Source: Trichormus sp. M33_DOE_039 (GTDB lineage: Bacteria; Cyanobacteriota; Cyanobacteriia; Cyanobacteriales; Nostocaceae). From it: 64,000 bases of DNA. Position 1 is the stretch's first letter, and every line of letters begins with the position of its first letter. The notes under the pieces were generated by a model. The model was not told the origin of the DNA, ran no database searches, and saw nothing but the letters and a program-made list of their open reading frames with translations. Below are positions 1-45,322 of this stretch, one piece after another. Where the stretch lies: the NCBI GenBank assembly GCA_015296085.1, contig DVDT01000031.1, positions 124,001-188,000 on the forward strand, read 5' to 3'. The position numbers were made by a program, and so were the translations under genes.

Positions 1-3000
1 GAGTAGTTGATTTTGATATGGTGCTGATGGTGCTGCTACCATCGCCGTCAAAGCGTTGATATAGTAATTAGCGATCGCCTCTACTTGTTCTCGACACAGT
101 TCACGCGTCTGATAATTCAGGGCTAAATTGACCTGAGAGGAAACCAGATCCAAACTAAAGTGAGCCACCAAAGTAAAGTTAGTTTGCTCATAGGTCTTGT
201 AATCTAAAACTTCAGAATCCTCTAAACCCAAAACCCCTTGATAAACGTGGAAGTGGACAAAATTAAAAGCCGTTTCAAATAAAGGCTGTCCACCACATAA
301 ACGTTGTATCTCAGCCAAAGGATAGCGACGATGAGGTAAAGCTGTTTGTTCAGCTTGGAAAGCTTGCTGGATGAGTTCTAACCAAGTACCACCAACGAGA
401 TGTGCATGCAATGGTAAAGTATTCAAAAATAGACCCAGAATCCTTTCCCCATCAGCATTTTCCGGTCTACCGTTAGCCACCAAACCCGTCAACACATCTG
501 TTTGATTACTCAGTAAATTTAATACCCGTAAATGAGCAGCCAACAGTACACTTTTCACAGGAACACCAGCCTGAGCAGCTAGTTGTTTCAATCCACCCGA
601 CAACTCAGAACTAATTGCGACTTCCTGAATACCTATTTCTGCTTGGGTCTTTTCCCGATAGGATTCTGGCCAGCGTGGTAACTCAGTAATTGAGACATCA
701 GCAAGTTGTTCTAGCCAATATTGGCGTGTCGTTTCTGATTGTAAAGCAGCACGTTCCAACGCCACAAAATCGCGGAAGGAGGGACTGGGGATTGGGGATT
801 GGGGATTGGGGACTGGGGACTGGGGACTGGGGACTGGGGATTTTTGGAGTAGATTTAAGTATGTTTGCCATAGTTCGGTGAGTAAAGATGCAACACTCCA
901 ACCGTCGAGAATGGCGTGATGGAAACTGAAACTCAAATTAAACGTTTCAGCACTACGAATATGAACACAAAAGCGGAGCAGAGGCGGTTTTGTCCAGTCG
1001 AAATTATGATACTTCTCCGTTTCCATCCAAGCATCGACAGCGACTTTTTGTTCAGCAGTTGTGAAATAACTGATATCATCCACCTGTAAAGGCACATCGA
1101 CAACTTGATGCACCAGCTGTAACGGCTCAGAAAAACCAGTTAAGTCAAAGCTGGTACGCAAGATAGCATGACGAGAAATTACTTGGGCGATCGCAGTTTC
1201 TAACGCCGATAAATCCAGCTTCGCCCGCAGATGGAAAGAGAAGACATCATGATAAACAGCTGTATCTGCATTCAATTCACTGTGAAACACCATCCCCGCT
1301 TGCAGTGCTGTCAGAGGATAAGCATCATCCAATCCTACTGGTAGCTTCTGCTTGTCTGTTTCTGCAATCAAACTAAAAGGTGACGTTTGTGGTGTGAGTG
1401 TAAAACTCACTTCTTTACTCACCAACTCCGCTAATTCGGCAATAGTTTGGTGTTGAAATAACTGCTGGAGAGAAAAATCTAACCCAACTTGATTAGCCTT
1501 CGCCAAAATTTGGATACTACGAATCGAGTCACCACCCAATTCAAAGAAGTTATCGTAAATTCCGACTTGAGACAATCCCAAAACTTCAGTCCAAATATTT
1601 GCTAATAACTCTTGTTCCTGAGTTTGGGGTGCAACAAAACCAGCAGCTAAGTCTGTGCTAACTTCCGGGATAGGTAACATTCGCCGATCCAGCTTACCAT
1701 TAGCCGTCAACGGGAAAGCCTCCAACGCCACAAACACAGATGGAATCATGTAATCAGGTAACTGCTGTTTGAGATAATCCCGCAACTCAGCACTACTAGG
1801 AGATTCCCCAGATGGAACAAAATAAGCCACCAACCGTTTATTCCCCGGTGTATCTTCTTGTACCAAGACCACAGTCTGCTGCACTTGGGGATGAGTTGCT
1901 AATTTCGCCTCAATTTCACCCAACTCGATCCGAAAACCGCGAATCTTTACCTGATCATCTATGCGACCGAGGTATTCAATGCTGCGATCGGATAAGTATC
2001 GGGCTAAGTCGCCAGTTTTGTAGAGGAGGTGTGGGGGTTTGGGGGTGTGGGGGTGTAGGGGTGTAGGGGGAGTAATTAACTTTGGACTTCTAGATTCCCA
2101 GTCCTCAGTCCTGAATTGGATAAATCTTTGTTGGGTTAATTCTGGACGGTTGAGATAACCGCGTGTTACTCCTGCACCGCCAACATACATTTCACCGCGC
2201 ACACCAATGGGTACAGGCTGTAAATGTTCATCTAGAATATAAAGCTGTAAATCAGGAATCGGGACACCAATGACACTGCTGCGACTTTCTGTATCAGTCA
2301 TAGTTAGAGGACGGAAAGTTACATGAACAGTGGTTTCCGTAATTCCGTACATATTCACCAATTGCGGAGTAGCATCACCGTGTCTTTCAACCCAAGGTAA
2401 TAAACTAGTCGGGTCGAGAGCTTCGCCACCAAAAATCACCGATCGCAAACTTAACTGATTATCTTTTAGTTTTTCTTGCTGCTCCACCCAAATCAACTGT
2501 CGAAAAGCCGAAGGAGTCTGATTGAGAACCGTCACCCTTTCCCGCACCAGTAACTCATAAAACGCCTCCGGGTCACGACTCACCCAAAAAGGTACAACCA
2601 CCAAGCGACCACCATAAAGCAACGCCCCCCACATTTCCCACACGGAGAAATCAAAAGCATAGGAGTGGAATAGCGTCCACACATCGCTGGCGTTGAAATT
2701 AAACCAATTTTGAGTTGCTGCAAACAACCGCATGACATTGCAGTGATTCACCAATACACCTTTCGGTTTACCCGTAGAGCCAGAAGTATAAATTACATAA
2801 GCTAAATGCTCAGGTAAAACCCCACTCTGAGGATTTTCTACATTATGAATATTAATATCATCCGAGTCTCTATCTAAACAGATAGTCTTAGCCGTCGTCA
2901 CAGGTAAAGTTTCTAACCACTTAGACTGAGTCAACAACACCGACACCTGGGAATCATCCAACATAAAAGCCAAACGCTCAGGCGGATAATCTGGGTCAAG

Positions 3001-4839
3001 GGGTACATAAGCACCGCCAGCCTTGAGAATCCCCAATAACCCGACCATCATATCCAGCGATCGCTCAACGCAGATCCCTACTAAAACATCAGGTGCAACC
3101 CCCAAAGTTCGTAAGTAATGCGCCAATTGATTCGCTCGTGCATTTAACTGAGCATAGGTCAAATGTTGGTCAGCAAAATTTACAGCTATAGCGTCCGGTG
3201 TTTTTTCTACCTGCTCCTCAAATCGTTGATGCAGACATTGATTCACAACATACTCAGTAGTCGGATGCCAATCTAATAGCAATTGCCGTTCAGCATCACT
3301 AAGTAATGGCAATTCCTGGACTGTTTGCTGGGGATTAGCCACAATTGCAGTCAATAAATTTTGGAAATGAGCCGCCATGCGGGTAATCGTTTCTGCATCA
3401 AACAAGTCAGTATTATATTCCCAATTACCGACAAGCCCTTGGGGTGTTTCCGTCATCGACAGAGTTAAATCAAACTTTGAGGTAATCGCCTCCATTGGTA
3501 ACTGTGACAACTGCAACCCTGGTAACTCCAAATTACCCATAGGCGCGTTTTGCAAGGCAAACATTACCTGAAATAAAGGTATGTGGCTGAGATTCCGCTT
3601 GAGTTGCAGTGCATCTACCACTTGCTCAAAGGGAATATCTTGATGCGCGTAGGCATCCAATGCTACTTGTTTGACTTGTTGTAGTAGATCTGAGAATGAA
3701 GGATTACCTTCCAAACGCGATCGCAATACCAATGTATTGACAAAAAACCCGATTAATGTGTTTATCTCCGAGCGATCGCGGTTAGCTACAGGGCTACCAA
3801 CTAAAATATCTGTCTGACCACTGTAACGATGCAGCAAGGTGACAAAGGCTGCTTCTAAGGTCATGAACAGCGTCACGCCAAATTTTTGGCTAAGGCGTTT
3901 GAGTTGTTCGGTTAATTCCAGAGGTAGGGGAAAATCTCGACTACTACCCCGAAATGTCTGAATAGCTGGGCGTGGTCTGTCGGTAGGAAGTTCTAATAAT
4001 GGTGGTGCATCAGCTAATTGCTTTTGCCAATAATTAAGTTTTTTATGAAATACTTCCCCTTGCAAGCATTGTCTTTGCCAGACAGCATAGTCTGCATATT
4101 GAATCAGTAAGGCTGGGAGGGGAGAAGGCTTACCCTGTAAAAATGCTGTATATAAAGTAGATATTTCTTGAATTAATACGCCAATTGACCACCCATCAGC
4201 GACAATGTGGTGCATATTCATCAGCAACACATGGGATTGTTCACCCAGCTTTACGAGTGTTACCCGCATCAGGGGTGCTTGGGTGAGGTCAAAAGGTTTC
4301 TCGGCATCGAGGATGGCTAATTGTTTGACTTCATCTGTGGACAATCCCTGTAAATCAATTACTGAGAGTGTGAGAGTAGCATCGGGGTGAATTACCTGGA
4401 CAGCATGACCATCAAGGTTTTGAAAACTGGTGCGTAGAACTTCATGACGGCGGATGACTTCTTGTAAAGCCTGTTCCAAGGCTGGGATATTGAGCATCCC
4501 AGTCATTTGCACCGCCGCCGGCATATTGTAAGTTGCGCTTGCGCCTTCCATTTGGTATAGAAACCAAAGGCGTTGCTGTGACCAAGATAGAGTTAAGTTT
4601 CCCTGGTCTCGCGCTACCGAGGGAATTGCTTCTAGCTCCAAGCTGGAGTTTACTTGTTGGAGAAAGCTGATAATTTCGACCTTGCGATCGCTCAGATTAG
4701 CACGAATTTCTGGTGTTAGTCTGCCACTGGGAGCATTACAGCGCAGTTTAACCTCTGAGGAGGAATTGGGGTTGGCTTCCACCCAGAGTCTAATGTCCAA
4801 GTTTCCTAATTCGGACAAAAATTCTTCAATGGGTTTCAT
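1..4839 (-). CDS. NRPS, C-A(Thr)-PCP-C..., partial at left edge
   Basis: This nonribosomal peptide synthetase follows the Val module of the upstream gene. The ATG at 4839 overlaps the stop of that gene as ATGA, which suggests translational coupling. The frame is open for 1613 codons and leaves the window, so the C-terminus is missing. Domains seen: a condensation domain with HHIVADG near residue 211, an adenylation domain (about 500-1010) with YTSGSTGKPKG near 684, a carrier domain with GGDS near 1104, and a second condensation domain from about 1150 with HHAILDG near 1308. Hand alignment of the A-domain pocket reads DFWNIGMVHK, the published threonine code. The second C domain opens with a YPLTALQAGMVFHS-type N-terminus, and puwainaphycin-type peptides carry dehydrobutyrine here, so a dehydrating role is possible but inferred. 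A heptamer repeat adds Pro/Gln/Ser residues within this C domain. Confidence 0.93.
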   Translation of the reverse strand, partial: MKPIEEFLSELGNLDIRLWVEANPNSSSEVKLRCNAPSGRLTPEIRANLSDRKVEIISFLQQVNSSLELEAIPSVARDQGNLTLSWSQQRLWFLYQMEGASATYNMPAAVQMTGMLNIPALEQALQEVIRRHEVLRTSFQNLDGHAVQVIHPDATLTLSVIDLQGLSTDEVKQLAILDAEKPFDLTQAPLMRVTLVKLGEQSHVLLMNMHHIVADGWSIGVLIQEISTLYTAFLQGKPSPLPALLIQYADYAVWQRQCLQGEVFHKKLNYWQKQLADAPPLLELPTDRPRPAIQTFRGSSRDFPLPLELTEQLKRLSQKFGVTLFMTLEAAFVTLLHRYSGQTDILVGSPVANRDRSEINTLIGFFVNTLVLRSRLEGNPSFSDLLQQVKQVALDAYAHQDIPFEQVVDALQLKRNLSHIPLFQVMFALQNAPMGNLELPGLQLSQLPMEAITSKFDLTLSMTETPQGLVGNWEYNTDLFDAETITRMAAHFQNLLTAIVANPQQTVQELPLLSDAERQLLLDWHPTTEYVVNQCLHQRFEEQVEKTPDAIAVNFADQHLTYAQLNARANQLAHYLRTLGVAPDVLVGICVERSLDMMVGLLGILKAGGAYVPLDPDYPPERLAFMLDDSQVSVLLTQSKWLETLPVTTAKTICLDRDSDDINIHNVENPQSGVLPEHLAYVIYTSGSTGKPKGVLVNHCNVMRLFAATQNWFNFNASDVWTLFHSYAFDFSVWEMWGALLYGGRLVVVPFWVSRDPEAFYELLVRERVTVLNQTPSAFRQLIWVEQQEKLKDNQLSLRSVIFGGEALDPTSLLPWVERHGDATPQLVNMYGITETTVHVTFRPLTMTDTESRSSVIGVPIPDLQLYILDEHLQPVPIGVRGEMYVGGAGVTRGYLNRPELTQQRFIQFRTEDWESRSPKLITPPTPLHPHTPKPPHLLYKTGDLARYLSDRSIEYLGRIDDQVKIRGFRIELGEIEAKLATHPQVQQTVVLVQEDTPGNKRLVAYFVPSGESPSSAELRDYLKQQLPDYMIPSVFVALEAFPLTANGKLDRRMLPIPEVSTDLAAGFVAPQTQEQELLANIWTEVLGLSQVGIYDNFFELGGDSIRSIQILAKANQVGLDFSLQQLFQHQTIAELAELVSKEVSFTLTPQTSPFSLIAETDKQKLPVGLDDAYPLTALQAGMVFHSELNADTAVYHDVFSFHLRAKLDLSALETAIAQVISRHAILRTSFDLTGFSEPLQLVHQVVDVPLQVDDISYFTTAEQKVAVDAWMETEKYHNFDWTKPPLLRFCVHIRSAETFNLSFSFHHAILDGWSVASLLTELWQTYLNLLQKSPVPSPQSPVPNPQSPIPSPSFRDFVALERAALQSETTRQYWLEQLADVSITELPRWPESYREKTQAEIGIQEVAISSELSGGLKQLAAQAGVPVKSVLLAAHLRVLNLLSNQTDVLTGLVANGRPENADGERILGLFLNTLPLHAHLVGGTWLELIQQAFQAEQTALPHRRYPLAEIQRLCGGQPLFETAFNFVHFHVYQGVLGLEDSEVLDYKTYEQTNFTLVAHFSLDLVSSQVNLALNYQTRELCREQVEAIANYYINALTAMVAAPSAPYQNQLL
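781..843. repeat. Heptanucleotide tandem repeat inside NRPS coding sequence
   Basis: Nine 7-bp units of GGGATTG or GGGACTG run without a break. Three units equal 21 bp, so the repeat encodes a 7-residue Pro-Gln-Ser-Pro-type period on the minus strand without breaking the frame. It lies inside the second condensation domain, between the HHAILDG motif and later core motifs. Confidence 0.95.
2028..2070. repeat. GGGGGTGT-type short repeat inside adenylation domain
   Basis: A purine-rich run of degenerate 8-bp units (GGGGGTGT, AGGGGTGT) lies in the coding sequence of the Thr adenylation domain. It encodes an unusual Pro/His/Thr-rich loop just before the YKTGDLARY motif. The frame stays open. Confidence 0.8.
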
Positions 4840-7800
4840 AATTCAATTTCCTCCCGGTCTTCTGATAACTCCACAGGTGTAGACTGTAACTTTTGGATGG
4901 TTGCAAGAATTTGCTCGATGTTGGCGGCTAGTTCCATGACTGTGGGTAATTCCAACAGTCGCCGCAATGGTAATTCCACACCGAAAGTTTGCCGCAGACG
5001 AGAAATCACCTGCATAGCATTGAGGGAATTACCGCCGATTTCAAAGAAATTATCCTCAATCCCGACTTGTTCTAAGTTGAGGACTGCGGAAATTATTGTG
5101 GCGATCGCTTGCTCTTTTTCTGTACGTGGAGCAATATATTTAACAGAGCGATCAGCATTTAAATCAGCTTTTGGTAAAGCATTCCGGTCTACTTTGCCGT
5201 TTGGTGTCAGAGGAAATGTATCCAAACAGACATAGCCTGCTGGCAGCATATAGTCTGGTAGTTGCTGCTTGAGGTAATGGCGTAATTCGCTACTACTGGG
5301 TGCTTCTGCTTCGGGGATGAAGTAAGCAATTAAGGTATTGGATTGAGTGGTAACAATTGTCTGTTTGATTTGGGGATGGCTTGCTAGTTTGGCTTCAATT
5401 TCACCCAGTTCAATGCGGAAGCCGCGAATTTTGATTTGTTGGTCTAAGCGTCCGCGAAATTCAATTGTTCTGTCTGGGCGATAGCGTGCTAAATCACCTG
5501 TTTTGTAGAGGGTGAGGGAGTGATTATAGATGACGGTATTATCCCCAGTCCCCAATTGAATGAATTTTTCTTGGGTTAAGTCGGGGCGTTTCCAGTAGCC
5601 TTGGGCTAAACCTGCACCGCCAGTATAAAGTTCACCCCAAACGCCGATAGGGGCTGGTTGTAAGTTGGGGTCGAGGATATAAACTTGGGTGTTGGCAATG
5701 GGGCGACCTATGGGGACTGATGAGTCTAAGTTGGTGTCGCTGGTTATGGGGTAGCAGCAGGTGAAGGTTGTATTCTCGGTAGGGCCGTAACCGTTGACTA
5801 GGCGGATTTGAGGCAGATGTTGTAAGACTTTCTGGACATGGGGAACTGATAATACATCCCCACCTGCTATTAGTTGTCGGACTGATTTTAAATCTTCTAG
5901 CCGTTCATCTACCATGAGATGAAACAGGCTAGCCGTTAGCCACAAGGTTGTGATTTGCTGTTGCTGAATTATTTGCCCTATCTCCTCTAAAGTGGGTTTG
6001 GGGATGGGCATGATCACTAATTTACCGCCGTTGAGTAAACTACCCCAAATTTCCAAGGTTGCAGCATCAAAGCAGATGGGTGCTAACTGTAGCCAAACTT
6101 CTTCTGAGGTGAAGTTAATATAATCTGTGGCTTTAACTAATCTCACAACTCCCCGGTGAGGAATGCTGACACCTTTGGGTTTACCAGTCGAGCCGGAGGT
6201 GTACATGATGTAAGCTAAGTTCTCAGATGTCACCTCTGCAATGAGATTTGCTGTTGATTCCTCTGGAATGGCTGCCGCATCTACAGACAAGATGTTTGTC
6301 AATGTAGGTAGTTTGTCAATTAAATCCGCCTGAGTTAATACAACTTGTGGTTGCACATCCTCCAACATCCCAGCCAATCTTTCTTGAGGATAGTCTGGGT
6401 CAAGGGGTACATAAACACCGCCAGCTTTGAGAATTCCCAATACTCCCACAATGAAATCCAGGGAACGCTGCATACAAATACCCACGGGGATACCCGACTC
6501 TACACCCTGCTTTTTCAAATAATGCGCCACTTGATTGGCACGTTTGTTTAATTCAGCATAAGTGAGTTGTTCTGAGTCTTCAATCACAGCTACAGCGTTT
6601 GGTGTTTGTCCTACTTGCTCCTCAAATATTTGGTGGATGCACTTATCAGCAGAATAGTCTGTTTGGGTAGCGTTCCAATCTACTAACAATTGTTGTAATT
6701 CCGTGGTTGTTAGCAGTGGTAATTTCCCTAGAGGTTGGCTGGGGTCGGCAATAATTGCTGTCAGTAAAGTTTGGAAGTGTCCTAACCATCGCTCAATGGT
6801 AGTCCCATCAAATAAATCAGTGTTGTAATGGCAATCTAACAACAGTTCATCATCTATCTGGGTAATATTCCAGTGAATATCATAGTCGGTGGCATTGATG
6901 GGTTGACTTAACCAACTGGTTTTGAGGTCGCCTAAGTTGGGTAAGGTGATTGACCTATCCAAATTGAATGTAACAGTAACTAGAGGTGATCTACTCGCAT
7001 CGGGGCTGAGGTTTAATTTTTGAATTAATTCAGCAAAGGGATAGTCTTGGTGTTGGTAAGCTTCTAATAAGACATTTCTGATAGTTAATAGATATTCAGA
7101 GAATGGAGTTTTACTCTGGAATTCGCTGCTGATTGGTAAAACGTGAGCGCAGTAACCGACTAAACTATCACTACCCGCAAGCGATCGCCCGGCTGTAGGA
7201 ATACCTACAATAATCTTGTCTTGCCCTGTCAATCTATGCAGTAATGTAGTGTACACCGCTAACAAGGTCATAAATAAGGTACAACCTTGCTCTAGACTGA
7301 CTTTTTTAATGGCGCGTCCTATGTCGCTATCGAGGAGTAAACTTTGCTTACTACCACGATAGGTTTTGATGGGGGAACGTGTTCTGTCGGTGGGTAAATC
7401 TAATGCAGGGGTTGTCTCGGCAAATTTTTGCACCCAGTATTGTTCATGGGTTGCCATTTCCTCTGTTTGGCTATGTTGAATTTGCCAGTTAATGTATTCC
7501 CGGTATTGCATCGGGGTGGGAAGTTGGCATTTTTCACCCCGACAAATGGCTGTATATAAGGTGCTGAGTTCTTGCAGGATTACCCCAACTGACCAGCCAT
7601 CAACAATAATGTGATGTCCGGTGAGGGTCAGGATATGTTCTTCCGGGGCTACTTGGATGAGGTTAACTCGGAATAGGGGTGCTTTGGTGAGGTCGAAAGC
7701 TTCTTGTAATTCGTTATGTGGAAAAGCTAACGTGAAACCTAACCCCCTAACCCCCTTCCCTACTAGGGAAGGGGGAAAAATCAAAGCCTCTCTCCTTGTA

Positions 7801-10800
7801 GGGGAGAGGTTTAGAGAGGGGTTTTCCAGATCCTCTGAAAAGTCAGTGCCTCCTGCCTCCTGCCCGATACTTATTTCTAAGCTGGGGAATATTTGCTGCA
7901 CATCACCTTCGGGACTGATGCTAGTTCTGAGTGCTTCGTGGCGGTTGACTACCTGCTGCATAGCTTGTTGTAAGGCTGGCAGGTTGAGTGTACCTTGTAG
8001 TTTCAGGCTGACTGATTCGTTGTAGGCCGTGGAAGCTTCATGACCCAGTTGTGACAGTACCCATAGTTGTTTTTGGGCAGTGGTTAGGGGGGCGGTGGTG
8101 AAAAATGGTCGGGTTTGATAGAGTTCTCTGAGGGCGTTTAACTCTGGGAAACTCTCGACAACTTCTTTGGGATTTACACCAAAGTCTATCAAACAGGCGA
8201 TTTCATCAACACCAATAGCTTGCAGTTGGGCGACAACTTGGGCGCAAGTTTCGGGTGTGCCGATTAAGGCACTAGATTGAATATAGCGATCGCAGGCTGA
8301 AAATAAAATATAATCTTTGTCGTCTTCGCTGAGGCTATCAAAATCTATCCCTAAATCTTGGCTTTTCACCAAATTTTGAAATAAAGCTACGGAAGATTTG
8401 AAATAGTTACACAGCGGTTGTCTGGCTTGTTGGCGAGTCTGTTCTAAATCTTGACCGACAAAAGTATGTAGTAATACTGTCACCCTACCTACTGCGGGAT
8501 CATAACCGTGTTGTGTTAATGATTGGCGGTACAGAGCAATATTTTCTGCCAAGTCCTCAATACTCTGTCCCATCAGGTTGGTTAAGACTCCCGCGCCTAT
8601 TTCTCCAGCTTTGATGTAGGTGTCTGGATTATTGACGATGGTAATCCAGTCTTGCAGTTCGGTTTGCATGGGTTTGGGAAATACTTCTACGCTGACGGTT
8701 TGACCGACACCGTTCTGCACTGGAACTGATTCCCCCCGCCACAATTTCCGCACGGTTTCAATCTGTTGAAACATCAATTCTCGGTGCTGACCGAAAGATT
8801 GAGGAGCAAATACAAAGTCATTGGGATTCCAGCCGGAGGCGAAGGAAATACCGACGCGTCCTTGGGAAAGGTTATCGACTACTGACCATTCTTCGACTAC
8901 TCGGATGGGATGGTGTATGGGGAGGACGACACTACCAGAGCGAATTTGAATGTTTTGGGTTTCTCTGGCGAGGGCAGCTGCAATTACTGAGGGGTTGGGA
9001 GAAAATCCGCCAAAGGCATGGAAATGTCTTTCAGGAATCCAAACAGCACTAAACCCATTTTGATCAGCAAATTTAGCCCCAGTAAATAACAGGTCATATT
9101 TATTTTGACTAAATTCTGCCTCATAGTTGCCGAAATAGTACAAGCTAAATTGCACCTTTGAGCTAGGAGTGTAGTGAGTTTTCTCTCTGGTGGCAGTTTT
9201 ATGTTTGCGTCGCTCCCAAAAGCCAGTCGGATTGGTTGACTGATTTAAGCTAACTGTTGGTAGCGACGCTGGTAACTTTTTTACGGTGATATTCTCCTGT
9301 TGCTGCTGGTTTGGGAAAAAACCACCAGCACGCATTTCACTAATACTTTCTTGTACTGCCCGAATAATCCAATCGATATCCGCGTCGGTGTGGGCTGTGG
9401 ATAAGAAACAGGTGCGTCCTTCCCAAATGTATACGCCTTTCTCTAGAAGGTGATAGAAAAACACATCCATGTTAGCTGTGAAGACAAACCGGAACAGTGA
9501 ACCGAAGTGTACTACTTGGATGTCAATTTGTTCCTCTGTGAAAATGTGATTAAGTTGTTCAACTAGATAGGCTGTCCGGGCATTTAAATTAGTTTGTAAT
9601 TGCACACCCTGTTCTTTTAAATATCTCAATGTGGCTCGGCAAGTCGCCATTGACAGAGGATGCTTATTAAATGTGCCTGCAAAAAATGTTCTTTCTGCTT
9701 GGGGATAGGATTGGTCGCCAAATTGCCAATATCCGCCGTCTATCCCATCCATGAACTTGGCTTTACCTGCGACTGCGGCTAGGGGTAAACCCCCACTAAA
9801 TATTTTGCTGTAGGTGGCTAAATCTGCCTGTACGCCAAAATGGGCTTGCGCTCCCCCTGGATGGATGCGAAAACCTGTCATAATTTCGTCAAAAATTAAA
9901 GCCGTTCCTGCTGCGGTGGTCAGGTGACGCAATTGCTGTAAGAATTCTCGCGGTTGTAAGTCAGGAAAACGACTCTGCACAGGTTCAACCATCACGGCGG
10001 CGAGGGTGTGCATCTCGGCTTGGAGAATTTCTAAGGCCTTGGGGTCGCCGTAGTTTAAGACTAAAACATCTTTGACGGTATTAGCAGCAATACCATTGGC
10101 AATGGGAACGCTGGACATCCCTTCAGGTTGAGCTAATACCCCATCAAAATGTCCGTGGTAAGAACCTGTAAAGATGGCAATGCGATCGCGTTTGGTCGCA
10201 GTCCGCGCTAATCTTAAAGCTACCATCACCGATTCTGAACCGGATTGACAAAATGTAGCTCGTTCCGCACCCGTCAATTCACACAATAATTCGGCAGTTT
10301 CTAAGGCTAATTCTGGTTGAGGGCCAACAGCTACACCTTTTTGCAGTTGTTCGTTAATCGCTGCAATGAGGAATGGCGCACCGTGTCCAAACAAATGTGT
10401 ACCGAAACCCATCGCCAAATCAACATATTCGTTACCATCTAAATCCCAAAAATGTGCGCCTTGGTAACGTGTCCCGACGATGGGATACAACATTTCCTTA
10501 ATTGCCATACGGAACCCGGCCACAGCGCGGTTATCAGCTAAGTGATGGCGGGAAGCTTGCGCCCTTTGCTGAGATTTCTGGGTGCGTTGGGTATAACGTT
10601 GGATGAGGGCTTCTAGGTGTTTTTGGGATTTGGGATTGGTGAGTAGGGACTGGGGAGTGGGGTCCGGAGAGTGAGGATTTTGGCGTGGAGGGGTGATATA
10701 TCGCGTTTCTACAGAATTTGAGGCGTGGTGTCCGTTTCCATTCCCGTTCCCGTTACCATTGCCGTTGGTAGTTTTGCCGTTACCGTTGCCGTTGGTGGGT

Positions 10801-14237: not shown

Positions 14238-14422
14238 TTAATTAATACCCTTATTATCAAGTCGTCAGCCTCATAGCCTAGTCAATAGTGAGATAGTGCG
14301 TTCCTATCGCCTTGGGTCGGAAAGCAAGTATCGTTAGCGTAGCGGTAGCGACGTTAGGAGCGTCACCCGTAAGGGTCAATAATCATTGGGGAACAGACTC
14401 TTTTCTTTTTTACTTTTACTCT
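14238..14422. other. Intergenic spacer with dispersed repeat
   Basis: This 185-bp gap between the halogenase-like gene and the hybrid PKS/NRPS start is the longest gap inside the biosynthetic operon. It holds a GCGTAGCGGTAGCGACG / AGGAGCGTCACCCGTAAGGG-type motif, a known style of dispersed Nostocales repeat. No clear terminator with a T-run was seen, so read-through transcription is likely. Confidence 0.5.
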
Positions 14423-16177: not shown

Positions 16178-16228
16178 GTTTGCCTTCCCTAAAAATTAAA
16201 TCTAATAGAACCAAATGCCCAAAAAATA

Positions 16229-33033: not shown

Positions 33034-33077
33034 ATGGCAGTTTCAGAGAAATAACTATGGCAGTTTCAGAGATAACT
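33034..33077 (+). repeat. Tandem duplication of the patatin start region
   Basis: ATGGCAGTTTCAGAGA occurs twice, at 33034 and 33057, 23 bp apart, followed in both by ATAACT. The first copy is a six-codon frame that stops (MAVSEK). The second opens the long coding frame. Confidence 0.9.
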
Positions 33078-36389: not shown

Positions 36390-36754
36390 AAACTCATCAT
36401 ATAGTTTAGAGATGATTTATAAAGTAAAGCTTAAATTGTAGGGTGCGTTACGCGTTGCTTTAACGCACGGCATGATCATGGTGCATTACGGCAATTTATA
36501 CTGTTGCTCATACTCAAATCCTGAAAATGCCGTAACACAACGGCAATAAAACGGGAGGAAAATCCACACCGCTTTTTGCCTCCCCTACTTAATATTTACT
36601 TTATAAATAGGCTCTTATAGTGGGGGCTACCTAACATTAACGCTTCACTAACAGCCCTTTCTTTTCTCAGTATAACTTTGTGTTTCCCTTGCGCCCTCAG
36701 ACTTATAGAGAATAGTCCTAAACTCTTTCTTATTAAAAACAACTTTAAAAATTT
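36390..36754. other. Intergenic region with inverted repeat before terminal NRPS
   Basis: Holds the inverted repeat GTGCGTTA (36443-36450) / TAACGCAC (36461-36468), part of a GTAGGGTGCGTTA-type element that is frequent between cyanobacterial genes, and a second related copy around 36480-36550. The NRPS promoter must lie in the AT-rich last 150 bp, but no confident -35/-10 pair was found. Confidence 0.6.
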
Positions 36755-39700
36755 ATGAGTGATTTATTAAAACGTCTTGATTATTTATCGCCAGAACAGC
36801 GTGAATTGGTTTTAAAAAAATTACAAATGCAGAAGATAAATTCTGCAACGGATAGTTATAAATCTCAAACTATACCCATTACGCCTGTATCTAGAGACCA
36901 AGCAATTCCTTTATCCTTTGCACAACAAAGATTATGGTTTTTAGATCAATTAGTTGGCCCTAGTGCTACATACAATACACCAACTGCTTTAAAAATTACT
37001 GGTAAGCTGAATATCCCAGCGTTAGAACAAGCCATTATTGAAATTGTGCGTCGGCACGAAGTTTTAAGAACTAGCTTTCAAAAAATTCATGAGACTCCTG
37101 TGCAAGTTATTCATCCTAGTGTGACAATAACTTTACCAGTAGTAGACTTACAAGATTTATCAGATCAGGAACAAGCCTTTAGAGTTCAACAATTAGTCCA
37201 ACAAGAAGCCCACACACCGTTTGATTTGCAACAACCGCCTTTAATTCGCGGTCAAATTCTGTGCTTGGGTGAGACTTCCCATGTTTTATTACTAACTGTG
37301 CATCACATTGTGGTTGATGGTTGGTCAATGGGAGTCTTTATTCAAGAATTATCTAGCCTCTACCCAGCTTTTGTAATAGGTCAACCATCCCCCCTAACAG
37401 AATTATCTATTCAATATGCTGATTTTGCTGTGTGGCAAAGACAATGGTTGAGTGGAGAAGTCCTAAATACTAAACTCAACTACTGGCGACAAAAGTTAGC
37501 GGGTGCGCCACCTTTGTTAGAACTACCAACAGATAGACCGCGCCCACCTGTAGAGACTTTTCGTGGTGGTAGCTATACATTTACACTTAGCAGTCAACTA
37601 ACACAGCAACTTGTCAACTTGAGTCAAAAGTCAGGGGTAACTCTGTTTATGACTCTACAGGCGGCATTTGTCACATTACTACATCGTTATACTAGTCAGG
37701 ATGATATTCTCGTCGGTACGCCCATCGCTAACCGTAACCGTCAAGAAATGGAACCATTAATTGGCTTTTTTGTCAACAGTTTGGTGTTGCGAACCAAGCT
37801 CAATGGTAATCCCAAATTTAGCGAATTACTCAAACAAGTACAGCAAGTCGCTCTAGAAGCTTACGAAAATCAAGATGTTCCCTTTGAGCAGGTAGTTGAA
37901 GCCTTACAACCAGAACGCAACTTAGACCATAATCCACTATTTCAGGTGATGTTGGTGTTGCAGAATGCACCCAAAGGGACACCAAAACTATTGGATTTAG
38001 AGTTGACATCGATAGAGATTGATTTCGCTACAGCCAAGCGGGATTTAACCCTCACCTGCGTAGAGACAGAGGAGGGTCTGGGGGGTGTTTGGGAATATAA
38101 CAGCGACTTATTTGATGAGTCTACAATCATCAGAATGGCGGAGCATTTGCAGACTTTGTTAACCGCAGTTGTGGTTAATCCTCATCAGCAGATTGCTGAT
38201 TTACCGATATTGACTGAACGAGAAAAACAGCAGTTGCTGGTTGAATGGAATGATACTCAAAAAGAGTATCCGAGTGAGTTATGTTTGCATCAGTTGTTTG
38301 AGGCGCAAGTGCAACGAACACCGAATGCAATAGCAGTGGTGTTTGCTGATCAATATTTCACATATAGTCAGTTAAATGCTCGTGCGAATCAGGTGGCGCA
38401 TTATTTGCAAAGCTTGGGAGTGGGGACTGAGGTCTTAGTGGGGATTTGTGCAGAACGTTCCTTGGATATGGTGGTGGGTTTGTTAGGGATTTTGAAAGCT
38501 GGGGGAGCTTATGTACCACTTGACCCTGCGTATCCACGCGATCGCCTAGAATATTTACTCGCAGATTCCCAAGTTCCTGTATTGCTTACCCAGTCGCACT
38601 TACTAGAAATTCTACCAGAGCATGAGCAGGCTATTTGTCTGGATACAGATTGGCAGGCAATTTCTCAACATAGTCAAGCCAATCCTGTTTCTCAAGTAAA
38701 ATCTACTAACTTAGCTTATGTAATTTATACCTCTGGCTCGACTGGTAAACCCAAAGGGACAATGATTCTACACCAAGGGGTGGTGAATTATCTCAGTTGG
38801 TGTACTGAAGCTTATGCTGTCGCAGAGGGATACGGCGCACCTGTACAATCTTCTTTTGCCTTTGATGCGACTATTACTAGTCTGTTCTCGCCGTTAATTG
38901 TCGGTGGACAAGTAGTCCTGTTACCAGAAAAGCAAGAAATTGAGGCTTTGTGTAGCGTTTTACGCTCCAAACATCACTTTAGCTTAGTTAAACTTACCCC
39001 TGCTCACTTGGAATTGCTCAATCAAATTATCCCCCCAGCAGAAGCAGCCGGACAAACTAACGCTTTTGTGATTGGTGGTGAAGCCCTCTTGGGTAAGACT
39101 CTGCAATTTTGGCGGCAAAATGCACCAGCCACCCGACTAATCAATGAATATGGCCCGACAGAAACCGTTGTGGGTTGTTGTATTTATGAAGTGCCAGATG
39201 ATACTTCCTTGACAGATGGTGTTTTAATTGGTCGCCCCATTGCCAACACCCAGCTTTATATTTTAGATGAATATCTGCAACCAGTCCCCATTGGTGTCAG
39301 GGGTGAACTCTACATTGGCGGGGCTGGAGTAGGGCGTGGCTATTTAAATCGTCCTGAGTTGACGCAAGAGAAATTCATTCCCAACCCCTTTGACAATTCA
39401 CAATGGCATCGTTTATATAAAACCGGGGATTTGGCACGTTATCGACCAGATGGCAATATTGAATACCTTGGTCGGATGGATAACCAAGTTAAAGTACGGG
39501 GTTTTCGGATTGAGTTGGGAGAGATTGAAGCAGCCTTGACACAACACCCAGAAGTGCGGGAAACAGTTGTGATTACTAGAGAAGATATTCCTGGTGATAA
39601 GCGTTTAGTTGCTTATGTTGTCCCTAATTCCCAGGATAGCGATCGCACTGACTCAACCCTAGTTAACGAATTCGAGTCAGAACAGCTTTCACAATGGCAG

Positions 39701-42700
39701 CAAGTATTTAATGATAGTTACAGCCAATCGGCAACGGATGCAGATCCCACCTTCAATATTATTGGCTGGAACGATAGCCGCACTGGGTTACTCATTCCTA
39801 AAGAGGAAATGCGGGAATGGGTAGAGTCTACAGTATATCGGATTCTTGAGGGGCAACCAAAACGGGTGTTAGAGATTGGTTGTGGTACGGGGATGCTGTT
39901 ATTTAGGATTGCGCCCCAGTGTGATTGTTACTACGGTACGGATATTTCGCCCCAGGCTTTGCGGTATGTACAGCAGCAAATTACCCAAATGGGGGGAAAT
40001 TGGTCACAAGTTAAATTAGCACAACGTTCCGCCGAAAACTTTCACGGAGTTGAAACTGGGGGTTTTGATGCGGTTGTGCTTAACTCCGTGGTGCAGTATT
40101 TTCCTAGCATTGATTATCTCATGCAGGTCATAGAAAACGCAGTGCAGGCGATCGCATCGAAAGGTTTCATCTTTATCGGCGATATCCGCAGTTTACCTTT
40201 ACTGGAAGCCTTTCACGCCTCGGTGCAGTTGGCGCAATCTCCCCCATCCCTCTCTACAGGAGATTTAAAACAACGCATCCAACGTCATCTAACCCAAGAT
40301 TCAGAACTGGTAATTGACCCTGCTTTCTTCACTGCACTACAGCAACGCTTCCCCCAAATTAGTCATGTGCAGATTCAAGTCAAACGCGGTCAATATCATA
40401 ATGAACTGACTCAGTTTCGTTATGATGTCACCTTGCATATCGGTAATACAGTTACGCCAACAGTTGTCCCACAATGGTTAGATTGGCAGCAAGATCAGCT
40501 AACATTACCCTTACTGCAAGAGTTACTCACCAAATCAGCATCAGCAATTTTAGGGATTAGAAATATCCCGAATCGGCGGTTACAAACGGAGATGAAATTG
40601 CTGGATTTATTAGCAAGTCTTCCCGAAAACGCGACCGTGGGAGAACTACAGAAGGAACTGGGGACGGCGAACTCGTCTATTGACCCGGAAGAATTTTGGC
40701 AATGGGAAACAGAATTATCCTATCAAGTACACATCAATTGGTCAGAAACAGACAAGGGTAACTATGATGTGGTGTTTGTCAGAGATCATCAGAATATTCT
40801 GCCAATTTTTGACCATTCACAGACCATTAAACCTTGGAGTAATTACGGTAATAACTTACTACAAGGACAATTAACACGTAAACTAGTGCCTCAATTGCGG
40901 AGTTTTCTCAAAGATAAACTCCCTGGTTACATGATGCCTAACGCATTCATGTTATTGCCTGCATTACCTTTAACGCCTAATGGTAAAGTTGATCGGGTAG
41001 CGTTACCTGTACCCAATCTCGAACTGAGTCGGACAGTAAGTTTTGTCCCTCCCCGCACAGCAGAGGAAGAAATCATTGCTGCAATTATGGCTGAGGTGTT
41101 GGGACTAGAAGAAATCGGCGTTTATGATAACTTCTTTGATTTGGGGGGACATTCCCTGTTAGCAACTCAGGTAATTTCTCGCCTACAGGAAGCATTCCCA
41201 GTAGAGTTACCCCTGCGGTGTTTGTTTGAAGCACCTAGCGTTGTGGAACTCGATCAATTTATTGCTAATCTGCGTCAAGTTGGGACAGGATTAACTGCAA
41301 CAGCGATCGCACCCGTACCCAGAACCGGCGAACCCCTACCCATGTCATGGGCGCAGCAGCGATTGTGGTTTCTCTACCAATTGGAAGGGGCGAATTCTAC
41401 TTACAATATGCCCAACGCTTTGCAAATTAACGGGGAACTGCACGTTGAAGCATTAAAACAAACTCTTTCGGCAATTGTCCAGCGTCACGAAATTTTAAGA
41501 ACCAGTTTTGATTTAATCGATGGTAGTCCAGTCCAGGTCATTAACCCTGATGCTAGGTTGAGTTGGGAAGTTATCGACCTGCGGGAATTAACAACCGATC
41601 AACAGCAAGCAGCCGTTGAAAAATTTAGCAACGAAGAAGCACAAAAGCCCTTTAACCTCAACCAAGCACCTTTAGTTAGAGCTACACTCTTACAATTAGA
41701 TGCACATTCCCATGTGTTGTTGTTCAACCTGCATCACATTGTCGCTGATGGTTGGTCAATGGGGGTAATTATTCAAGAATTATCGACAATTTATCCCGCC
41801 TTAGCTGCGGGTCAATCTTTCCCCTTAAAAGATTTGACCATTCAATATGCTGACTTTGCTGTGTGGCAAAGACAATGGTTAACGGGGGAAGTCTTAGAAA
41901 CCAAGCTGAATTATTGGCAGCAACAACTAAAAGACGCACCACCTGTATTAGAACTACCCACCGATAAACCCCGTCCGGTTGTGCAGACTTTTAGAGGCGA
42001 TCGCATCACTTTCCAACTCAGAAAAGACTTAAGTGAACAACTCAACCTCCTCAGTCAACAAGCTGGTGCTACCTTATTTATGATTTTGCAAGCGGCGTTT
42101 GTGACGTTGCTGCATCGCTACACTGGTCAGGATGATATTCTCGTTGGTACTCCCATCGCTAACCGCAACCGTAAAGAATTAGAACCATTAATTGGCTTCT
42201 TTGTCAATACTTTAGTTCTGAGAAATAAAGTCGCAGATAATCCCAAATTCTCAGAATTGTTGACTCAGGTGAAACAAGTAGCCCTGGATGCTTATGCTCA
42301 TCAGGATGTACCCTTTGAGCAAATAGTAGAAGCTTTGCAACCAGAACGCAAACTCAGTCATGCGCCTCTGTTCCAAGTGATGTTTATCTTACAGAATGCG
42401 CCGATGGGTAATTTAGAATTACCTGGGTTGAGTTTTGTCCCGTTGGCGAGTGAAAATGTTACCGCCAAGTTTGATTTAACCTTGTCTATTTGGGAGACAA
42501 AACAAGGGCTTGCAGGTTGGTGGGAATACAATAGCGACTTGTTTGAGTCAGAGACAATCAGCCGGATGATTGCACATTTCCAAACCCTACTAGCGGGGAT
42601 TGTCGCTAATCCAGAAGCACGGGTGGCGCAGTTACCGTTGCTGACTGTTGAAGAACAGCAAAAGTTATTTGGTGATGTAGAGGAAGTCTACACCATACAG

Positions 42701-45322
42701 GAATCTATCCCAGAATTATTTACAGCCCAAGTACAACAGACTCCTGATCATGTGGCTGTGGTGTTTGGAGAAACACAACTCACCTACGCTGAGTTAGATA
42801 CTCGTGCAAATCAGTTGGCGCGCTACTTACAAACATTGGGAGTCAAGCCAGAAGTCGCCGTGGGTATCTGTATCGAACGTTCCTTAGATTTAGTCGTGGG
42901 TTTGTTGGCGATTCTCAAAGCTGGTGGTGCGTATGTCCCCCTAGATGCTACATATCCCCGCGATCGCTTGGCTTATATGTTACAAGATTCCCAAGCGGCG
43001 GTATTACTGACAACATCTGAATTAGTAGAAATATTGCCAGCACACAAGGCGCAGGTAGTTTGTTTAGATTCTCTCTCCTACCAACATTTACCCTCAGATT
43101 CTCCTGAAAATGGACTACAACCGGATAACTTGGCATATGTAATTTATACATCTGGCTCTACTGGTATGCCGAAGGGTGTAGCCATGCCCCATCGTGCTTT
43201 AGTTAACCTCATTCAGTGGCAAATTACTCACACGTCCATCGCCGCCAACGCCAAAACTCTACAATTTGCGCCGGTTAGTTTTGATGTGTCCTTCCAAGAA
43301 ATCTTTTCAACTTGGTGTGCTGGCGGAACATTGGTTTTATTACCAGAAGACACACGTAAAGATACCACTGCATTATTCAATTTACTCACTCAGCAAGGTG
43401 TAGAAAGATTATTCTTACCCTTCGTAGCTTTGCAACAGTTAGCGGAAGTCTCCGCTAATGTGGAATCTTTGCCACCTTTACGAGAAATTATCACGGCTGG
43501 AGAACAGTTACAAGTCACACCCGCTTTGAAAAATTTCCTGCAACGGTTGGGAAATTGTACGCTACATAACCAGTATGGCCCTACGGAAACTCATGTGGTG
43601 ACGGCATTTACCTTGGAGGGTGATGTAAACGAGTGGCCGATTTTACCACCAATTGGTCAGGCGATCGCTAATACTCAAACCTACATCCTAGATAAATATC
43701 TGCAACCAGTCCCAATGGGAGTTAGGGGTGAGTTATATATCGGTGGTGCTAACCTAGCTAGAGGTTATCTCAATCGCCCTGATTTAACGGCTGAGAAATT
43801 CACTACTCATAATGGAGCTAGATTATACAAAACCGGTGATTTAGCCCGATATTTACCCGATGGCAATATTGAATATCTGGGACGGATTGACAATCAAGTC
43901 AAAGTGCGAGGCTTCAGAATTGAATTAGGTGAAATCGAAGCGACGTTAAATAATCATCCCCAAGTGAAACAGGCGATCGCCATTGTGCAAGGGGAAACTT
44001 CTACTGACAAACGCTTAGTAGCATATGTAGCTTTCAACTCTGAACAACAAGCCACACCTTCAGAATTGCGTCAATTCCTCCAGCAGCAGTTACCTGAGTA
44101 CATGATTCCATCAGTGTTTGTGGCGTTGGATGCTTTACCTTTGACTCCTAGTGGTAAAGTTGATAGGCGATCGCTACCTTCACCCTCTGGAATCAATCAA
44201 TCACAGTTAGCTATAGCCCCTCGTGATTCTCTAGAATTACAGCTGACACAAATTTGGTCTGAGGTTTTAGGCGTTGACTGGGTAGGAATTCACGATAATT
44301 TCTTTGAAATTGGTGGACATTCGTTGTTAGCTGTGCGGTTGATGGCACAAATTCAACAAAAACTACGTAAACAATTACCCCTCGCTTCCCTCTTCCAAAA
44401 CCCCACTGTGGAAGCATTAGCCAATCTACTACGTCAGTCAACAGATGCTTCCCTGTGGTCAAGTTTAGTTCCAATTCAAACCAACGGTATTAATCCGCCT
44501 TTCTTCTGCATCCCCGGTGCAGGCGGAAATGTGCTGTATTTCTATGATTTAGCCCGTTATCTAGGTGCAGAACAACCATTCTACGGTTTGCAAGCCCAAG
44601 GTTTAGACGGGGAATCAGAACCACTACAACGCATTGAAGAGATTGCATCTGAGTACATCAAGGCTATTCAAACCGTCCAACCCCAAGGGCCTTATTTGTT
44701 GGGGGGTCATTCCTTTGGCGGTTTAGTCGCGTTTGAGATGGCGCAACAGTTACAGCAGCAAGGACATGAAATTGGGCTATTAGCTATTCTTGATACTGTC
44801 GCGCCAGTTCAATCACAGCCATCAGTGGCGATGGAATTAGATGATGCAATGTGGTTGATGCAAGTCGCCAAAGTTATGGAACGGTTATTTAGTACAACTC
44901 TGCAAATTGATTACGAAACTTTACAACCATTGAATGCAGAAGCACAGTTAGATTACTTATTAGAGCAGTTGAAAATTACTCAGATTCTACCGACGGATGC
45001 TAGTAAAACTCAACTGCGGGGCTTTGTGCAGGTTTACAAAACCCATACCCAAGCCTTTAGTAACTACTTCCCGTCATTGGTAAATAACCTGCCTATGACT
45101 TTATTCCGTGCTAGTGAAGTGAGTCAAGAAGAACAAGCGATCGCAGAATATGTCAATCGTCTGCAAGATGAAACCCTGGGTTGGCATAAATTTTCTGATG
45201 AACAAGTTGATATCCACGTTGTCCCCGGTACACATCTAACCATGATGCAACCACCTCATGTTCAGGTGCTAGCCGAACATTTACAAGCTTGCATTCGCGG
45301 TGCTATTTTCGATTGCAAGTAA
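36755..45322 (+). CDS. Terminal NRPS: C-A(N-Me-Asn)-PCP-C-A(Pro)-PCP-TE
   Basis: This 2855-residue synthetase adds the last two amino acids and releases the peptide. Domains by approximate residue: C 50-490 (HHIVVDG near 183), A 500-1400 interrupted between motifs A8 and A9 by a SAM-dependent methyltransferase (LEIGCGTGM near 1040), PCP (GGHS near 1463), C 1520-1960 (HHIVADG), A 2000-2480, PCP (GGHS near 2519), thioesterase 2590-2850 (GGHSFGG near 2651, catalytic-type GTHLTMM near the end). Pocket residues read DATKVGEVGK for the first A domain, close to the Asn code DLTKLGEVGK, and DVQFIAQVVK for the second, close to the Pro code. N-Me-Asn-Pro-TE is the expected end of a puwainaphycin/minutissamide assembly line. 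It is on the opposite strand from the starter operon. Confidence 0.95.
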   Translation: MSDLLKRLDYLSPEQRELVLKKLQMQKINSATDSYKSQTIPITPVSRDQAIPLSFAQQRLWFLDQLVGPSATYNTPTALKITGKLNIPALEQAIIEIVRRHEVLRTSFQKIHETPVQVIHPSVTITLPVVDLQDLSDQEQAFRVQQLVQQEAHTPFDLQQPPLIRGQILCLGETSHVLLLTVHHIVVDGWSMGVFIQELSSLYPAFVIGQPSPLTELSIQYADFAVWQRQWLSGEVLNTKLNYWRQKLAGAPPLLELPTDRPRPPVETFRGGSYTFTLSSQLTQQLVNLSQKSGVTLFMTLQAAFVTLLHRYTSQDDILVGTPIANRNRQEMEPLIGFFVNSLVLRTKLNGNPKFSELLKQVQQVALEAYENQDVPFEQVVEALQPERNLDHNPLFQVMLVLQNAPKGTPKLLDLELTSIEIDFATAKRDLTLTCVETEEGLGGVWEYNSDLFDESTIIRMAEHLQTLLTAVVVNPHQQIADLPILTEREKQQLLVEWNDTQKEYPSELCLHQLFEAQVQRTPNAIAVVFADQYFTYSQLNARANQVAHYLQSLGVGTEVLVGICAERSLDMVVGLLGILKAGGAYVPLDPAYPRDRLEYLLADSQVPVLLTQSHLLEILPEHEQAICLDTDWQAISQHSQANPVSQVKSTNLAYVIYTSGSTGKPKGTMILHQGVVNYLSWCTEAYAVAEGYGAPVQSSFAFDATITSLFSPLIVGGQVVLLPEKQEIEALCSVLRSKHHFSLVKLTPAHLELLNQIIPPAEAAGQTNAFVIGGEALLGKTLQFWRQNAPATRLINEYGPTETVVGCCIYEVPDDTSLTDGVLIGRPIANTQLYILDEYLQPVPIGVRGELYIGGAGVGRGYLNRPELTQEKFIPNPFDNSQWHRLYKTGDLARYRPDGNIEYLGRMDNQVKVRGFRIELGEIEAALTQHPEVRETVVITREDIPGDKRLVAYVVPNSQDSDRTDSTLVNEFESEQLSQWQQVFNDSYSQSATDADPTFNIIGWNDSRTGLLIPKEEMREWVESTVYRILEGQPKRVLEIGCGTGMLLFRIAPQCDCYYGTDISPQALRYVQQQITQMGGNWSQVKLAQRSAENFHGVETGGFDAVVLNSVVQYFPSIDYLMQVIENAVQAIASKGFIFIGDIRSLPLLEAFHASVQLAQSPPSLSTGDLKQRIQRHLTQDSELVIDPAFFTALQQRFPQISHVQIQVKRGQYHNELTQFRYDVTLHIGNTVTPTVVPQWLDWQQDQLTLPLLQELLTKSASAILGIRNIPNRRLQTEMKLLDLLASLPENATVGELQKELGTANSSIDPEEFWQWETELSYQVHINWSETDKGNYDVVFVRDHQNILPIFDHSQTIKPWSNYGNNLLQGQLTRKLVPQLRSFLKDKLPGYMMPNAFMLLPALPLTPNGKVDRVALPVPNLELSRTVSFVPPRTAEEEIIAAIMAEVLGLEEIGVYDNFFDLGGHSLLATQVISRLQEAFPVELPLRCLFEAPSVVELDQFIANLRQVGTGLTATAIAPVPRTGEPLPMSWAQQRLWFLYQLEGANSTYNMPNALQINGELHVEALKQTLSAIVQRHEILRTSFDLIDGSPVQVINPDARLSWEVIDLRELTTDQQQAAVEKFSNEEAQKPFNLNQAPLVRATLLQLDAHSHVLLFNLHHIVADGWSMGVIIQELSTIYPALAAGQSFPLKDLTIQYADFAVWQRQWLTGEVLETKLNYWQQQLKDAPPVLELPTDKPRPVVQTFRGDRITFQLRKDLSEQLNLLSQQAGATLFMILQAAFVTLLHRYTGQDDILVGTPIANRNRKELEPLIGFFVNTLVLRNKVADNPKFSELLTQVKQVALDAYAHQDVPFEQIVEALQPERKLSHAPLFQVMFILQNAPMGNLELPGLSFVPLASENVTAKFDLTLSIWETKQGLAGWWEYNSDLFESETISRMIAHFQTLLAGIVANPEARVAQLPLLTVEEQQKLFGDVEEVYTIQESIPELFTAQVQQTPDHVAVVFGETQLTYAELDTRANQLARYLQTLGVKPEVAVGICIERSLDLVVGLLAILKAGGAYVPLDATYPRDRLAYMLQDSQAAVLLTTSELVEILPAHKAQVVCLDSLSYQHLPSDSPENGLQPDNLAYVIYTSGSTGMPKGVAMPHRALVNLIQWQITHTSIAANAKTLQFAPVSFDVSFQEIFSTWCAGGTLVLLPEDTRKDTTALFNLLTQQGVERLFLPFVALQQLAEVSANVESLPPLREIITAGEQLQVTPALKNFLQRLGNCTLHNQYGPTETHVVTAFTLEGDVNEWPILPPIGQAIANTQTYILDKYLQPVPMGVRGELYIGGANLARGYLNRPDLTAEKFTTHNGARLYKTGDLARYLPDGNIEYLGRIDNQVKVRGFRIELGEIEATLNNHPQVKQAIAIVQGETSTDKRLVAYVAFNSEQQATPSELRQFLQQQLPEYMIPSVFVALDALPLTPSGKVDRRSLPSPSGINQSQLAIAPRDSLELQLTQIWSEVLGVDWVGIHDNFFEIGGHSLLAVRLMAQIQQKLRKQLPLASLFQNPTVEALANLLRQSTDASLWSSLVPIQTNGINPPFFCIPGAGGNVLYFYDLARYLGAEQPFYGLQAQGLDGESEPLQRIEEIASEYIKAIQTVQPQGPYLLGGHSFGGLVAFEMAQQLQQQGHEIGLLAILDTVAPVQSQPSVAMELDDAMWLMQVAKVMERLFSTTLQIDYETLQPLNAEAQLDYLLEQLKITQILPTDASKTQLRGFVQVYKTHTQAFSNYFPSLVNNLPMTLFRASEVSQEEQAIAEYVNRLQDETLGWHKFSDEQVDIHVVPGTHLTMMQPPHVQVLAEHLQACIRGAIFDCK

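Follow-up and report, generated by a model that had tools for sequence, protein, structure and literature searches.

Which lipopeptide is assembled by a locus whose synthetase genes lie in two arms on opposite strands, and is its assembly line whole? The question is raised by the window, the complete 64,000-nucleotide stretch of DNA analysed here (C102:124001-188000 of the 7.0-Mb genome of Trichormus sp. M33_DOE_039), in which an earlier reading of the sequence letters (the original prediction) had recognised a cluster of the puwainaphycin/minutissamide family of cyclic lipopeptides. The nine amino-acid modules of the locus, read through adenylation codes, domain order and a condensation-domain match, begin with Val and Thr (as dehydrobutyrine, Dhb) and end with N-Me-Asn, Pro and a thioesterase. 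The product predicted after the fatty acid (FA) is FA-Val-Dhb-Thr-Val-Gln-Gly-OMeThr-NMeAsn-Pro. On this sequence evidence the locus probably holds a complete puwainaphycin/minutissamide-type biosynthetic cluster (a probability of roughly 0.8), and the predicted ring points to the type of puwainaphycins A-E, with Val at position 5, rather than to that of puwainaphycins F/G.

Extent and Layout of the Predicted Cluster

Domain content was determined by open reading frame (ORF) calling and Pfam scans, with NCBIfam added for the fatty acyl-AMP ligases (FAALs), and the contig was read across positions 84001-208000. The original prediction had placed the cluster at positions 1 to 45322. Both arms do lie in the window, but position 1 was ruled out as the cluster edge because genes continue on the contig, and the true left end falls at window position -17655 (C102:106345). 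With this left part included, the whole cluster measures ~63 kb (window -17655 to 45322), and every core gene is a single open frame. The minus strand carries puwB-H-like genes, and the plus strand carries the patatin gene orf2 and a puwA-like gene. Leftward of position 1 lie the remainder of a three-module nonribosomal peptide synthetase (NRPS), a two-module NRPS with a terminal epimerisation domain (PuwG-like, 2659 aa), and a C-A-FkbM methyltransferase-PCP protein (PuwH-like, 1396 aa, ending at C102:106345). The cluster is taken as complete at ~63 kb on gene content, because EAD4/STAND and WD40 genes lie beyond the PuwH end. These two neighbours, a gene for an EAD4-STAND ATPase and, after it, one with WD40 repeats (C102:99655-104744; window -24345 to -19256), are of types that resemble conflict systems.

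All four synthase blocks named in the original prediction were recovered by the domain scans: a reducing polyketide synthase (PKS) with a C-methyltransferase, a hybrid running from ketosynthase to peptidyl carrier, a further minus-strand NRPS (4839-1, crossing the left edge) and an opposite-strand two-module NRPS with a thioesterase. Two FAALs, a free acyl carrier protein, a P450, a halogenase-like gene, a dynamin and a patatin had not been mentioned. The FAAL and carrier starter (PuwC, PuwD) and the methylating PKS with its three reducing domains (PuwB) are all present, as are the motifs of the KS, AT, carrier, AMT, P450, C and TE domains. The genes within the window are listed below, with domains abbreviated as KS, ketosynthase; AT, acyltransferase; DH, dehydratase; cMT, C-methyltransferase; ER, enoylreductase; KR, ketoreductase; AMT, aminotransferase; MOX, monooxygenase; C, condensation; A, adenylation; E, epimerisation; NMT, N-methyltransferase; ACP and PCP, acyl and peptidyl carrier proteins; and TE, thioesterase.

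-5342 to 4839 (1 to 4839 in the window), minus strand: PuwF-like NRPS, TubC docking domain and three C-A-PCP modules (Thr, Thr, Val), 3393 aa (Pfam, codes)
4836 to 14237, minus strand: PuwE-like hybrid KS-AT-ACP-AMT-MOX-C-A(Val)-PCP, 3133 aa (Pfam, code DALWIGGTFK)
14423 to 15802, minus strand: candidate CylC-type dimetal-carboxylate halogenase, 459 aa (fold, ligands, primer regions)
15890 to 16177, minus strand: PuwD-like free ACP with GLDSS motif, 95 aa (75% identical to the Nostoc linckia ORF at the same place)
16229 to 18028, minus strand: PuwC-like stand-alone FAAL, starter 1 (Pfam/NCBIfam FAAL-type matches; 84% to N. linckia)
18030 to 25727, minus strand: PuwB-like PKS, KS-AT-DH-cMT-ER-KR-ACP (Pfam; AT motif HAFH)
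25787 to 27052, minus strand: cytochrome P450 beside starter 2 (Pfam; haem motif FSYGIHACLG; 83% to N. linckia)
27054 to 29186, minus strand: FAAL-ACP, starter 2, the alternative starter (Pfam/NCBIfam; 80% to N. linckia)
29595 to 31673, minus strand: bacterial dynamin-like protein between the arms, second paralogue of the genome (Pfam)
32055 to 32459, plus strand: small ORF, 134 aa (same place in N. linckia, 76% aa identity)
33057 to 36389, plus strand: LamG-patatin phospholipase-like protein, orf2 of the puw cluster (Pfam)
36755 to 45322, plus strand: PuwA-like NRPS, C-A(Asn)-NMT-PCP-C-A(Pro)-PCP-TE (Pfam, codes, TE motif GHSFG)

Adenylation Codes and Condensation Domains Predict the Ring

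Specificity codes were extracted by alignment to the 1AMU adenylation domain (PheA) and verified against the PDB copy. The PuwE domain gave DALWIGGTFK; the three PuwF domains DFWNIGMVHK, DFWNVGMVHK and DAFWLGGTFK; those of PuwG DAWQFGLIDK and DIVQFVAVWK; PuwH, in which the FkbM methyltransferase is inserted in the A domain, DFWNIGMVHK; and PuwA DATKVGEVGK and DVQFIAQVVK. By what we take to be the canonical codes, these specify, in module order, Val; Thr, Thr, Val; Gln, a Gly-like residue; Thr; and Asn, Pro. The by-eye readings of the original prediction (Val, Thr, Asn with an inserted N-MT, and Pro) match the aligned codes. The Thr code of PuwH together with its methyltransferase would give O-methyl-Thr.

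The position of Dhb was read from the condensation domains. The line contains ten C-type domains, six of which form one group with 58-70% mutual identity; the second C domain of PuwF (C2), the PuwH and PuwE C domains and the PuwG E domain fall outside it. The nearest PDB chains to PuwF C2 were McyA (544 bits), AmbE (253) and McyB (170), with the others listed at 125 bits or below. The controls PuwF C1 and C3 favoured Txo (411 and 393 bits) and scored 111 and 90 bits against McyA. According to a paper on laxaphycins (PMC7524897), C domains of the modified-amino-acid clade follow Thr modules and are proposed to dehydrate them, with microcystin and nodularin cited. Because PuwF C2 is closest to McyA and AmbE, Dhb is placed at the first Thr. 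Only one such domain is present, which predicts a single Dhb; this agrees with the 2014 account of puwainaphycins A-E (PMC4219810).

In that account, puwainaphycins A-E and F/G have Val, Dhb, N-Me-Asn and Pro in common, but in A-E position 4 is Thr and position 5 is Thr or Val, with Gly in place of Ala and O-methyl-Thr in place of Thr. The structures of A-E are cited there to Gregson 1992, and the numbering of Gly and O-methyl-Thr is off by one relative to a ten-membered ring. The common residues occupy the same positions in the present line, in agreement with the family membership originally proposed. The second and third PuwF codes, as read above, fit positions 4 and 5. Judged from the genes, the predicted Val, Dhb, Thr, Val at the Thr/Val position, O-methyl-Thr, N-Me-Asn and Pro, together with a probable Gly, correspond to residues of puwainaphycins A-E. 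The original prediction had left the choice of family member to the modules left of position 1. Those modules do complete a decapeptide-type line (with the fatty-acid part, the nine amino-acid modules correspond to a ten-membered ring), and with Thr, Val, a probable Gly and O-methyl-Thr the line points to the A-E type and not to F/G; neither mismatching specificities nor an incomplete left part was found in the contig sequence. The mass arithmetic used in this work reproduced the printed puwainaphycin F formulas. For the predicted ring with 3-amino-2-hydroxy-4-methyl acids of C10, C12, C14, C16 and C18, it gives MH+ values of 1107.64, 1135.67, 1163.70, 1191.73 and 1219.77; chlorinated tails would give 1141.60, 1169.63, 1197.66, 1225.70 and 1253.73, and oxo tails 1121.62, 1149.65, 1177.68, 1205.71 and 1233.75. 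D-Ala in place of Gly at position 7 would add 14.016 to each value. A literature search, thin on subscription papers, found no gene cluster for puwainaphycins A-E.

Comparison with Known and Related Clusters

The puw cluster of Cylindrospermum alatosporum CCALA 988, which makes puwainaphycins F/G, was compared through the text of PMC4219810. It has the same two-arm layout, with the patatin orf2 and puwA opposite puwB-H; the same domain orders in PuwB, PuwC, PuwD, PuwE and PuwA; nine modules; a PuwG-terminal E domain; and the same Val-Thr start and N-Me-Asn-Pro-TE end. Unlike CCALA 988, the cluster described here has the predicted middle residues Thr-Val-Gln-Gly, and it adds the FAAL-ACP and P450, the CylC-type halogenase candidate, the inter-arm dynamin and the FkbM methyltransferase of PuwH.

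A pattern scan with PuwE of a collection of 84,980 species genomes, which depends on exact matches of short peptides and may overlook relatives, returned 56 loci. The closest was Nostoc linckia FACHB-104 at 84%, and the next stood at 63%. Gene content and layout of the N. linckia locus (G388:C105:81171-143563) are the same as here, with both starters, the halogenase, the dynamin and the small ORF all present. The six large synthases are 80-88% identical between the two loci, the two FAALs, the P450 and the dynamin 80-84%, and the halogenase 73%; the patatin protein reaches 73% across 635 aligned residues. Eight of the nine adenylation codes are identical, and the ninth (DILQFVAIWK) differs in two letters. 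The flanks differ: an ABC transporter follows PuwH in N. linckia. It was rejected as a cluster part since its 88% homologue lies on a separate contig (C86) of the present genome.

Among 388 genomes of the order, 58 (the present one included) match the PuwE aminotransferase-monooxygenase region at E <= 1e-150. Apart from the present genome, G216 came closest across the full region, at 64% identity, and a 335-residue part reached 71% (G279). Three of the matching loci were inspected (G216, G120 and G126) and have different gene contents, with the contigs of G216 and G126 stopping near the PuwE match; a further orthologous cluster may exist among the other matches. More NRPS-like matches occur on contigs C97, C98, C103 and C6 of the present genome. 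The patatin protein, 1110 aa here versus 813 aa in N. linckia, contains LamG domains and scores 183 bits against a CBASS lipase model, just under the 200-bit cut-off. Elsewhere in the window, at 54316-55683, neighbouring DUF4231/SLATT and SLOG (LSDAT_prok) genes form a pair resembling a small defence module.

Starters, Halogenase Candidate and P450

The gene at 14423-15802 had no family match in the Pfam scan. A structure model of its 459-aa product shows an AurF-like (dimetal-carboxylate) fold in which the Glu/His ligands, numbered by the AurF scheme, are conserved. A Foldseek search with this model gave no match at E <= 0.001, which counts against the assignment. Five of the ten published cylC primers were tried: BF/BR delimit 706 bp (673-715 in the paper) and AF/AR 971 bp (788-986 in the paper), with one or two mismatches each and chance expectations in the window of 0.05, 0.08, 0.73 and 0.23; primer CF had no match in the window. 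The possibility that the gene is a false ORF was rejected. In PMC8406957, the order FAAL-ACP-CylC-type I PKS is described for puwainaphycin-like clusters. The present gene shares with the CylC-type halogenases of that paper the gene order, the primer sites and the AurF-like fold, as judged from gene and model. The protein is thus a candidate CylC-type halogenase, and the fatty tail is probably chlorinated; chlorination is cited for puwainaphycins in PMC4219810.

The occurrence of two alternative starters in puw/min clusters is likewise cited in print, and alternative starters and CylC halogenases are both already known in the puwainaphycin/minutissamide family. The P450 beside the second starter was rejected as a cluster-specific marker, with homologues in 55 of the 388 genomes at E <= 1e-60 (best non-self identity 56%).

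A Dynamin between the Arms Also Occurs in Sister Genomes

Two genes of the inter-arm dynamin's family occur in the genome at E <= 1e-100. The cluster copy shares 86% identity with copies in two genomes of the same genus, G318 and G395, and 81% with the one in the N. linckia cluster; none of the remaining matches listed from the 388 genomes exceeds 65%. The CYTH gene that follows PuwA is found in all 13 genomes of the genus searched, and the cluster-type dynamin in three of them (the present genome, G318 and G395), where it lies toward CYTH at this site. The surroundings of CYTH were inspected in six of the remaining ten genomes and hold other genes.

In G318 (C1:4141635-4144621) and G395 (C101:11207-13967), the dynamin stands beside CYTH without synthetase arms (compare window 29595-31673 and 45323-45400). 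The G395 sequence aligns to window 29623-31810 and, 68 bases on, resumes at 45377, so that a right-arm block of ~13.6 kb (31811 to 45376, no strand assigned) is missing at the same site. Because the alignment jumps from 31810 to 45377, G395 lacks the 134-aa ORF, the patatin gene and PuwA. Left of its dynamin, the only G395 matches to window 25001-50000 were 28-30 bases long, and no protein there matched the window region.

A seven-row tree places the window copy with those of G318 and G395 (support 86/88) and the N. linckia copy outside. The simplest history would have the dynamin present in the cluster before G318 and G395 lost the arms, because the N. linckia dynamin lies within a complete cluster; alternatively, the arms may have been gained around a dynamin that was already resident. 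No dynamin is listed among the ten ORFs of the 2014 cluster as described in PMC4219810, and the literature search, with its thin coverage of subscription papers, found no description of a cluster dynamin. The dynamin might belong specifically to the lipopeptide system, with a putative role in repairing or protecting the membrane against the cell's own membrane-permeabilising product, and would then be a resistance remnant in G318 and G395; we hold this idea only tentatively and think it rather unlikely.

Points against the Assignment and Alternative Readings

Several observations weigh against the assignment of a functional, A-E-type cluster. The modules are split 3+2 here versus 2+3 in CCALA 988. 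The ABC transporter orf1, an accessory and non-defining gene, lies beside puwA in CCALA 988, whereas here the next gene encodes the CYTH protein and the nearest ABC gene in the window is a lone ATPase (55826-56728). A 2025 review gives two dehydro residues as common to all reported variants, in conflict with the single Dhb predicted here. The remaining points concern position 7, the PuwB reducing domains and a set of insertions, and bear on alternative readings.

At position 7, the code DIVQFVAVWK shares five of ten positions with what we take to be the Gly code, and an E domain, superfluous for Gly, follows the module. Such a partial match, and an E domain that would have nothing to epimerise in Gly, leave room for D-Ala there: the cluster would still belong to the puwainaphycin family, and its ring would be unlike A-E at this position. 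The nearest PDB chain to the PuwH C domain was McyB (542 bits), which comes after an epimerising D-Ala module in microcystin synthesis; this is in keeping with the upstream E domain that ends PuwG. The published PuwG likewise ends in Ala-E (PMC4219810). Against D-Ala, the code has Q278 and W331, the N. linckia counterpart shares seven of ten positions with the Gly code, and puwainaphycins A-E have Gly there. A PDB search with this A domain returned linear gramicidin synthase subunit A as its best match and did not settle Gly versus Ala. The residue is probably Gly, and a D-Ala ring, while a serious candidate, is unlikely; one view of the PuwG E domain is that it is a relic of the Ala-E module of the F/G cluster.

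The second reading is that the cluster is silent or decaying through insertions, altered KR and DH sites or lost partners. The PuwB KR (aa 2315-2324, window 18756-18785) reads GQANHAAANA, in which His takes the place of the usual catalytic Tyr, and its DH motif (aa 938-947) reads HRVFDEVIVP versus HRVFGEVIVP in N. linckia, with Asp for Gly. Full reduction of the chain by PuwB is therefore not certain; if the KR is idle, the tail would retain an oxo group at C5. PuwB does have the ER and KR cofactor motifs and the KS triad, its AT motif HAFH is read as malonyl, and the cMT is the predicted source of the 4-methyl group of the tail. Because the KR His occurs in both the window and N. linckia, a working variant would be favoured over decay. 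Nine in-frame insertions of 12-48 residues relative to N. linckia lie in PuwB, E, F, G and H; in the reverse direction, N. linckia has two of 11-14 residues. The nine are as follows.

PuwE aa 472-490 and 2154-2177; PuwF aa 914-933, 2013-2024 and 3098-3145
PuwG aa 1185-1206 and 1214-1228; PuwH aa 854-866; PuwB aa 1770-1797

Part of these insertions have repeat-like text (SLVGKGVRGLGF). A further repeat-like stretch (PSPQSPVPNPQSPIPSPS) lies at PuwF aa ~1323-1370 (C102:124785-124877 and surroundings), directly after the HHxxxDG motif of C2. Short matches to it occur on several further contigs, and it may be a dispersed repeat translated inside the C2 domain.

Decay would also suit the retention of the dynamin alone in G318 and G395, which indicates that the arms are dispensable. 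Against it, the core genes are each one open frame, the motifs of the KS, AT, carrier, AMT, P450, C and TE domains are there, and the six large synthases keep 80-88% identity to those of N. linckia, a cluster that has the KR His too; a dead or silent cluster is thus improbable. Calophycin, described as having the same fatty acid type and Pro link, is a very improbable product, as the nine modules follow the puwainaphycin order and its listed mass of 1249.48 was unmatched by computed C10-C18 tails (plain, chlorinated, hydroxy or oxo).

Proposed Assembly and Implications

For the A-E-type product favoured above, assembly would begin with fatty acid activation either by the stand-alone FAAL and free ACP (PuwC/D) or by the FAAL-ACP with its neighbouring P450, and the CylC-type halogenase would probably chlorinate the PuwC/D-loaded chain. 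After extension by PuwB and PuwE, PuwF would add Thr (converted to Dhb through the following modified-amino-acid C domain), Thr and Val; PuwG would add Gln and then probably Gly; PuwH would add O-methyl-Thr; and PuwA would add N-methyl-Asn and Pro, with ring closure through the TE domain.

The locus would thus represent a complete cluster whose module order predicts a puwainaphycin A-E ring. The halogenase candidate and the P450 beside two starters could explain the chlorine and oxygen that tails in this family are reported to bear. Finally, sister genomes that differ in having the arms at this site render both the gain or loss of the cluster and the role of its dynamin open to testing.

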